Assembly: GCA_003331425.1 (NCBI GenBank)
Contig: QOOS01000001.1
Span: forward strand, 186,001 to 250,000
Reading direction: 5' to 3'
Length of the DNA: 64,000 bases
From: Candidatus Nitrosopumilus sp.
GTDB taxonomy: Archaea > Thermoproteota > Nitrososphaeria > Nitrososphaerales > Nitrosopumilaceae
The notes under the pieces were generated by a model. That model saw nothing but the letters and a program-made list of their open reading frames with translations, was not told the DNA's origin and did no database searches. The stretch's first letter is position 1, and every line of letters begins with the position of its first letter. A program made the position numbers and the translations under genes. Shown in pieces: positions 16,401 to 62,494 of the stretch.

Positions 16401-16769
16401 ATGATTCCTGGTGAATATTTTTTATCTGAAGATCCTATCATTGCAAATATAGGAAAATCAGTAATAATTCTAGATGTTAAAAATACTGGTGATAGACCAA
16501 TTCAAGTTGGTTCTCATGCACATTTTTTTGAAATCAATAAGGCATTAGAATTTTCAAGAAAAAAATCCTATGGATTCCATTTGAATATTCCTGCAGGAAC
16601 TTCTATAAGATTTGAGCCTGGAGATAGTAAAAAAATTGAATTAACTGAATTTTCTGGAAAAAAAACTGTTTACGGATTTAGTGGATTAGTAAATGGTTCA
16701 CTATCTGAAAAACAAAATGAAGCGTTCTCAAAGGCAAAAGAACAAGGATTTCGAGGTATGGAATTATGA
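16401..16769 (+). CDS. ureB: Urease beta subunit
   Basis: [22 protein letters not shown]...[14 protein letters not shown]. Confidence 0.97.
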
Positions 16770-18478
16770 CTCTAAATATTTCTAGAAAAAATTATGCTGA
16801 TTTGTTTGGTCCTACAACAGGTGATAGGGTTCGTCTTGCTGATACCGATTTAATTATTGAAATTGAAAAAGATTTGATCAAACATGGTGATGAATCTGTT
16901 TTTGGTGGTGGAAAAAGTATTCGAGATGGAATGGGTCAAGCTAGTGGGGTATCAAGAGATGAATCACTTGATCTTGTTATTACAAACGCAATAATTTTAG
17001 ATCCTGTTTTAGGAATTATCAAAGCTGACATTGGTGTAAAAGACGGAAGAATTGTAGGTATTGGAAATGCTGGTAATCCAAATATTGCAGATGATGTGGA
17101 TATGGTAATTTCATCCAACACTGAAATTATTGCTGGTGAAAATACAATTTGTACTCCTGGCACCATCGATTCACACATTCATTTTATTTCTCCACAACAA
17201 GCAACACACGCAATTTGTAATGGAACTACAACAATGATTGGTGGTGGAACAGGTCCTGCTGATGGAACAAATGCAACAACATGCACTCCTGGAAAATGGA
17301 ATATTCATAGAATGATAGAATCTGTAGATAATTTTCCAATGAATTTTGGTTTTCTTGCAAAAGGAAATGATTCACTTGAACCTGCATTATTTGAACAAAT
17401 TAAATCCGGAGCTTGTGGACTAAAATTACATGAAGATTGGGGAACAACTCCGGCCACAATAAATTCTGCACTAAATGTCGCTGATAAAACTGACACACAA
17501 GTTGCTATACACACTGATACACTAAATGAATGTGGATTTGTTGATGATACAATAGCAGCAATTGCTGGTAGAACTATTCACACTTATCATACAGAAGGTG
17601 CAGGTGGAGGACATGCCCCAGATATCTTAAAAATTGCAAGTGAATCTAATATTTTACCATCATCGACAAATCCAACACGACCATTTACTGTAAACACTCT
17701 ATCAGAACATCTTGATATGATGATGGTGTGTCACCATCTTAATTCATCTGTGCCTGAAGATATTTCCTTTGCTGAATCTAGAATACGAGGTGAAACAATT
17801 GCTGCAGAAGATGTGTTACATGATATTGGTGTTCTTAGTATGATGTCTTCTGATAGTCAGGCAATGGGAAGAGTTGGGGAAGTAACTACAAGAAATTGGC
17901 AAACTGCAGATAAAATGAAAAAAATGACTGGAAGTTTACCTGAAGACAATTCTCAAAATGATAATTTTAGAGTTAAACGCTATATTGCAAAAATTACAAT
18001 TAATCCAGCAATTACACATGGAATTTCAGATCATGTTGGTAGTTTGCAGCCTGGAAGATTAGCTGATATTGTTATTTGGTCTCCCCAATTTTTTGGTGTA
18101 AAACCTAAAATGATTATCAAGGGTGGATTCATTGCTTATTCTTTAATGGGCGATCCAAATGCATCAATACCAACTACTGAACCAATTTTCTATAGACCCA
18201 TGTTTGGATCATTTGGAAAAGCAGTCCAATCAACATCTGTAATTTTTACATCTCAATTAGCATTAGATAATGGCATGCAAGAAAAAATTAATTGTGACAA
18301 AAAATTGGTTGCAGTAAAAAATTGTCGTTCTATTGGAAAAAAAGAAATGTTGTATAATGATTCAACACCTGAGATAGATGTGAATCCTGAAACATATGAA
18401 GTAAAAGTAAATGGAAAAATTACTACAACAGATCCTGCAACAAAATTATCTTTAGGTAGATTGTATCATTTGTTCTAA
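16766..18478 (+). CDS. ureC: Urease alpha subunit
   Basis: [48 protein letters not shown]. Confidence 0.98.
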
Positions 18479-27071: not shown

Positions 27072-27167
27072 TTTGATGAAAAATTATTAAAATAATTTAA
27101 TAATATTCAGTATTATTAGTAATTATTTTGAAAAAATCTTAAATATTAAAATTTTCTATAATAGTTA

Positions 27168-27300
27168 ATGTCGAAAGTTGTTATTTCTATCGACTAATTT
27201 GCGTAGCCCCGCAGAACGAAAAAGGCACTCAGGCGTTTGACGCTTGACCACAAGAGGAAATCTCTTAGTGTTCTGCAGTTATGGGGTTTACGCCTTTTAC
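27168..27300 (+). ncRNA. Candidate structured non-coding RNA (branched; strand tentative)
   Basis: Nested pairing GCGTA/TACGC, CCCC/GGGG, GCAGAAC/GTTCTGC enclosing hairpins TCAGGCGT-TTG-ACGCTTGA and AAGAG-GAAAT-CTCTT; intergenic, GC-rich island, TATA-like CTTAAATA upstream and T-run downstream. Confidence 0.6.
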
Positions 27301-27849: not shown

Positions 27850-28491
27850 ATGAATGGTCTTAATGATAAATGGTCCAAACAACCAAAAACAGGCATAGCT
27901 GATAAAATTAATGATACAATCAAGCCTAAAGGTCCATTAAAACCACGAGTTCAAGATGGTATTAAAAAATTACAATCACAAATCAAAAAATTAGATTCTA
28001 TGTTATCCAGTTTAAAAGAACGTGATGCTAAATTATTTCAAAGAATTGTAACTGCAACACAAAATCATGATGTTCAAACTAGTAAAGTTCTAGGAAATGA
28101 ATTAGCTGAAGTTCGTAAAGTTACAAAAATTTTAAGCAGTGCTAGAATTGCTTTAGAACAAATTGAATTAAGATTATCTACATGTAATGATCTTGGTGAT
28201 ACTGTAGTTGCTATGGTACCTACAATGGGATTAATGAAGAATCTTAAATCATCACTTGGAAAAGTAATGCCTGGTGCAGAGCAAGAAATTGGTCAGATGG
28301 CAGAAATGCTTGGAGGATTTATGACTGAAAGTTTCGCAGGTGACGCAGCATTTGGTATAGACGAAACAACTAATGCAGAATCTGAGAAAATTTTACAAGA
28401 AGCTTCTGCTGTTGCTGAAAGTTCAACTGGTGAAATGTTCCCATCTGTTCCATCTACTAGTAAAGAACAAACAAGCTCTAAATTTTTCTAA
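27850..28491 (+). CDS. cdvB: Snf7/ESCRT-III-like CdvB-family protein (paralog A)
   Basis: Helical Snf7-like region strongly similar to ORF 52683-53336. Confidence 0.88.
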   Translation: MNGLNDKWSKQPKTGIADKINDTIKPKGPLKPRVQDGIKKLQSQIKKLDSMLSSLKERDAKLFQRIVTATQNHDVQTSKVLGNELAEVRKVTKILSSARIALEQIELRLSTCNDLGDTVVAMVPTMGLMKNLKSSLGKVMPGAEQEIGQMAEMLGGFMTESFAGDAAFGIDETTNAESEKILQEASAVAESSTGEMFPSVPSTSKEQTSSKFF

Positions 28492-62420: not shown

Positions 62421-62494
62421 TGCGGAATACGGGATTTGAACCCGTGACCTTCAGCTTGGGAAGCTGACGTCATACCAGACTAAACTAATTCCGC
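62421..62494 (-). tRNA. tRNA-Gly (anticodon CCC)
   Basis: GCGGAAT/ATTCCGC acceptor stem, T arm ACGGGTTCAAATCCCGT, anticodon arm TCAGC-TTCCCAA-GCTGA. Confidence 0.95.

Follow-up and report, generated by a model that had tools for sequence, protein, structure and literature searches.

The intergenic island at positions 27168-27300 of the window (the whole 64,000-nucleotide stretch of DNA analysed) raises the question of whether it holds an RNA gene and, if so, what kind of RNA that gene would specify. An earlier note on this DNA had described a branched structured RNA candidate in a GC-rich island, and the composition is as described, with 52% GC in the island against 30% across the window. The region folds with an MFE of -45 kcal/mol (z = -3.0; 1 of 200 shuffles equally stable). 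Folding energy is similar for both strands, and it is three other features that point to the plus strand: the promoter spacing, which is conserved, the T-rich 3′ terminus and the open reading frame. The TATA-like box that had been noted upstream can be placed at 27139-27145 (TTAAATA), and the 22-nt distance from its end to the start codon recurs in 100 of 111 distinct members of the family described below. The best explanation of 27139-27300 is a stand-alone plus-strand gene for an RNA of ∼130 nt, with transcription as yet unproven. Its features are as follows.

27139-27145, plus strand: conserved A/T-rich TATA box TTAAATA, read directly from the sequence, ending 22 nt before the ATG.
27168-27197, plus strand: nine-codon ORF ATGTCGAAAGTTGTTATTTCTATCGACTAA, encoding MSKVVISID and a stop, probably leaderless; frame conserved across members.
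27171-27193, plus strand: P1 hairpin inside the ORF (27171-27177 with 27187-27193), with one A.A mismatch; 68% of cells paired.
27201-27217 with 27270-27293, plus strand: outer stem P2-P3 (GCGTA/TACGC, CCCC/GGGG, GCAGAAC/GTTCTGC).
27201-27210, plus strand: P2 5′ strand GCGTAGCCCC, starting 3 nt past the stop codon; 92.7% of cells paired.
27211-27217, plus strand: P3 5′ strand GCAGAAC; 97.5% of cells paired, compensatory changes in 7 of 7 pairs.
27229-27247, plus strand: P4 hairpin (8 bp, 3-nt loop), variable in sequence; 87.7% of cells paired, compensatory changes in 5 of 5 modelled pairs.
27252-27266, plus strand: P5 hairpin (5 bp) AAGAG-GAAAT-CTCTT, loop strongly conserved; 95.8% of cells paired, compensatory changes in 4 of 5 pairs.
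27270-27276, plus strand: P3 3′ strand GTTCTGC, from fold and covariation.
27283-27293, plus strand: P2 3′ strand GGGGTTTACGC, from fold, covariation and direct sequence.
27294-27298, plus strand: T-tract after C, inferred to be the probable 3′ end or terminator; CGCC and a T-rich tract occur in most members.

The composite outer stem and the two inner hairpins of the earlier note are thus present as it drew them, as is its GTCGA/TCGAC arm (27170-27174 with 27190-27194). Covariation, which had been suggested as a check, is strong. Among 76 aligned members 88.9% of cells pair and double-sided, compensatory changes occur in 29 of 33 pairs, including 7 of the 10 in P2; the covariation score is 0.357 compared with 0.176 for shuffled alignments, none of 500 shuffles reached the observed values, and the signal is lost when partners are slid. 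The alignment was fitted to the covariance model and so somewhat favours the pairs of that model, but RNAalifold recovered identical helices from an independent MAFFT alignment. That this is a structured RNA can be regarded as practically certain. Of all the helices P1 has the least support; the ORFs fold more stably than their shuffled versions, but covariation is weak within these fixed 30 nt. A pseudoknot between AAAAG (27220-27224) and the 3′ C-T-tract was considered and rejected, as slid partners gave equal or higher covariation. P5 resembles the ribosome-binding sequence GAGGUGAUC, a resemblance only, for which there are no data on 16S rRNA complementarity.

The RNA could not be assigned to a known family. 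No Rfam 15 family matches 27168-27300 at the gathering threshold, and a permissive scan returned only low, unrelated scores, none in a relevant place; apart from an adjacent tRNA, nothing in Rfam matched any of 15 related loci, divergent and type C loci (see below) included. That the earlier note could not match it to tRNA, 5S, SRP or RNase P RNA agrees with the Rfam result. RNase P RNA (RF00373) and archaeal SRP RNA (RF01857) have no match here and have genes of their own elsewhere in the genome (G000:C9:164769-165048 and G000:C1:280783-281094, respectively), and ARAGORN detects a single tRNA-Gly (62421-62494) and no tmRNA in the window. Elsewhere in the window, 5_ureB_sRNA (RF02514) scores above its gathering threshold at 16917-17209 on the minus strand; since this match lies antisense within an apparent urease alpha-subunit gene (16766-18478, plus strand), it probably represents conserved coding sequence rather than an sRNA. 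A literature search found no description of the RNA, within a scope that left out subscription papers and supplements, so that mention of an unnamed transcript in a transcriptome table remains possible. Judged from comparative sequence data, the RNA family is real and uncatalogued in Rfam.

A covariance model of the RNA (R1) detected homologues in 201 of 400 genomes of the class (18 genera) and in 126 of 300 sampled from the order (17 genera), all within the family of the window itself, which named records identify as Nitrosopumilaceae. A DNA search of 120 relatives gave matches in 69 genomes, often two per genome; 66 of these genomes belong to the genus of the window, and the other three matched only weakly. 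The broader model R2 matched all 25 positive-set genomes, at 1-4 copies each; it had no match in 30 genomes that represent 16 other families of the order, nor in eight genomes inside the family that R1 had not hit. Presence outside the family was therefore rejected for the order and class samples and for the broader model; two matches titled Nitrososphaeraceae (L180 and L203) do not stand out from the usual type A members, and the bins they come from are probably mislabelled. Among named genomes the exact core pattern occurs in Nitrosopumilus, Nitrosarchaeum, Nitrosomaritimum and related bins. It is absent from viral contigs, and viral carriage was rejected. Within this sampling, the comparisons indicate a paralogous RNA family confined to one archaeal family.

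Closed genomes mostly carry two or three copies (range 1-4), which fall into three types. The window copy is of type A: on one side it has a gene for a short-chain dehydrogenase, on the other a convergent gene whose product is a small membrane-anchored protein without a Pfam match. Nearly all genera share this arrangement, which is likely to mark the ancestral locus. Beyond the convergent gene lies a gene for a Snf7/ESCRT-III-like protein (27850-28491, plus strand; below Pfam's cut-off), and in almost every genus of the family the type A locus has such a gene nearby. Type B adjoins a PurP-like gene (DUF1246/DUF1297). In the lineage of the window (L032, L033, L034 and L039) a same-strand gene of 182-187 aa follows type B 65-107 nt 3′; the copy tested has no Pfam match, and no such gene was noted at the remaining type B loci that were examined. 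Type C occupies the interval between aroC and aroA, differs in its inner domain and was not detected in the genome of the window. Type A members are picked up, though only weakly, by a model of type C, which indicates that the classes are related. In one genus (g36), three genomes (L139, L140 and L143) carry type A and type C-like copies ∼8.4 kb apart in opposite orientation.

These settings bear on what the RNA could do locally. A riboswitch or leader attenuator was rejected because, at type A and type C loci and at most type B loci, both flanking genes run in the opposite direction to the RNA, so that the downstream gene is convergent; the exception is the co-directional gene that follows type B in the window's lineage. 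The same arrangement could be taken to suggest a cis-acting antisense or interference element controlling its opposite-strand neighbours, particularly as the 3′ end of the window RNA touches the stop codon of the convergent gene (27297). The neighbours, however, vary from the dehydrogenase and membrane-anchored protein genes at type A to the PurP-like gene at type B, aroC and aroA at type C and others elsewhere, and the structure is conserved whatever they are, which leaves this explanation quite improbable. A dispersed mobile or repeat element would account for the presence of one to four copies in a genome and for the lineage-specific loci at which additional copies lie. Nevertheless, almost every genus has the type A locus, each copy retains a promoter of its own, the structure is under selection and no target-site duplication or mobile gene was noticed (no systematic search was made), so that this possibility can hardly be entertained.

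The branched structure proposed earlier is therefore supported but was incomplete, in that the 5′ arm had not been recognized as a conserved nine-codon mini-ORF, nor the locus as one copy of a multi-copy family. The ORF is probably leaderless, given that its start lies 22 nt after the TATA box. The exact nine-codon frame, generally at this distance, is found in 119 of 126 hit rows. With the TATA box as the anchor for each row, nine codons are counted in 103 of 111 distinct members and eight in seven; the remaining member (L006) also has eight, read from a shifted TTG. The eight-codon readings (8 of 111) allow for a shifted start or a deletion, and the anchored count omits five members with an atypical TATA box. 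One of these, L162, has lost its stop, the sole stop loss known. In a scan of named genomes, which overlaps the first member set in part, all 69 anchorable frames have nine (63) or eight (6) codons. No comparable length focus exists in frames +1 and +2. The combination of a TATA box, 22 nt and nine codons has its sole instance in the 64-kb window at this locus, and shuffles give 0.3.

One account of such a segment would be a purely non-coding structured small RNA, in which the AUG and the UAA, UAG or UGA are single-stranded signals around P1 and the frame is incidental. P1 does form within the frame in many members, the ORFs outfold their shuffles and, as set out below, the peptide sequence is not conserved; conservation inside the frame is thus partly structural. 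Yet the stops interchange (TAA 60, TAG 29, TGA 17), with TGG never found and a stop kept at codon 10 in 19 of 19 inferred changes. The inference used parsimony, with a tree derived from the structured part, and the codon-10 count is biased because only members whose frame has nine codons enter it. The start codon is ATG, GTG or TTG, bar one AGG in a low-scoring member (L142); where the ATG has been lost, codon 2 has turned into GTG or TTG, and frame length changes in steps of three bases. Moreover, type C retains the nine-codon cassette (16 of 16 members) despite its different inner domain and weaker P1. The purely non-coding explanation is accordingly unlikely, and the nine codons very probably constitute a selected reading frame, as far as can be judged without evidence of translation.

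A different reading takes the nonapeptide as the product, encoded by a very short leaderless mRNA in which P2-P5 would form a 3′ untranslated structure that ends and stabilizes the message, the peptide acting as a signal or small effector. Its length is fixed at eight to nine codons and the pattern M-x-K-D/R-V/I/A-x-S/P/Y-x-D/E/K recurs in distant genera and in type C. The substitution pattern points the other way. At codons 2-9 the amino acid is kept in only 34 of 264 inferred changes, and the pairwise synonymous share (0.205) is below the neutral expectation (0.254) rather than in excess of it, implying no purifying selection on the peptide; a conserved peptide was rejected on these grounds. 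Peptides also differ between paralogues of one genome, and the structured part is conserved in sequence and shape beyond the needs of a 3′ stabilizer. The nonapeptide as product is therefore unlikely, though not to be dismissed. A short ORF selected as a frame within a structured RNA, one criterion for a dual-function small RNA, appears to be met (start, stop and length are conserved), whereas a second, a conserved peptide, is not. The frame thus appears to be kept and the peptide not, with the qualification that P1 also constrains these bases.

If a frame is maintained without regard to the peptide, translation itself may be the conserved input. The gap between the stop codon and P2 is 3-5 nt in nearly all members, and, by established ribosome geometry, a ribosome holding this stop codon in its A site would touch or open the base of P2. 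This geometry, together with the unconstrained peptide, favours translation as the input, and the retention of the same cassette by type C with a different inner domain has been counted on the same side. It is proposed that the transcript is leaderless and that ribosomes would start on the 5′-terminal AUG, read nine codons and terminate there, which would bring the front of the ribosome up against the base of P2 or into it. The terminating ribosome would then perturb P2 or hold the 5′ end, and either effect would gate how stable the P2-P5 domain is or whether it binds protein, this domain being the putative effector of a trans-acting small RNA; there is no direct support for gating and no target is known. 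Taken as a whole, a trans-acting small RNA in which translation of the mini-ORF, not its peptide, gates a P2-P5 effector is held with about as much doubt as confidence, transcription, translation and targets being unproven. The wider suggestion is more tentative and leans towards doubtful, namely that this may be an archaeal RNA class with translation as input, in which a content-free cassette of fixed length would position a ribosome, as it terminates, at the foot of a branched RNA, which could so sense or capture ribosomes. In type C members (L295-L306) and their relatives in g36 (L139, L140, L141 and L143), codons 5-7 are able to base-pair with the segment that runs from the stop codon up to where P2 begins (as in GCAAATT/AATTTGC), possibly an alternative to P2 that translation would open, although this rests on inspection by eye and some single-sequence folds only.

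Dual-function small RNAs with a small ORF include SgrS/SgrT and RNAIII/hld, whose frames are longer than nine codons and conserved as peptides. The same holds for SR1/SR1P, according to the portion of the source available (PMC8501984). The present RNA resembles all three in combining a small, structured molecule with a short reading frame; it differs in the conservation of frame and length without that of the peptide sequence, in the position of the frame at the extreme 5′ end and in its archaeal host. In tmRNA, too, a structured RNA contains a very short frame with its stop codon beside the structure, a likeness to the arrangement here, in which there is, unlike in tmRNA, no apparent tRNA-like domain and the frame is opened by its own start codon. 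Ribosome-associated small RNAs, many without a detectable peptide, occur in the archaeon Haloferax volcanii, as far as the accessible part of that report goes (PMC12482152). They belong to another phylum, a fixed nine-codon 5′ cassette is not described in that part, and their ribosome occupancy remains unproven for the present RNA. The Tan1 ncRNA of Thalassoarchaea is an abundant, structured and uncatalogued marine archaeal RNA (PMC5069720), differing in length (229 nt) and phylum; the two have not been compared in sequence.

The conjunction of a fixed mini-ORF and an unconstrained peptide is unusual, and can be tested directly in cultured Nitrosopumilus. Nitrosopumilaceae are among the most abundant ammonia oxidisers of the sea, and the nine-codon frame directly before a branched fold suggests that, in this family, the translating ribosome may be part of the working of the RNA.
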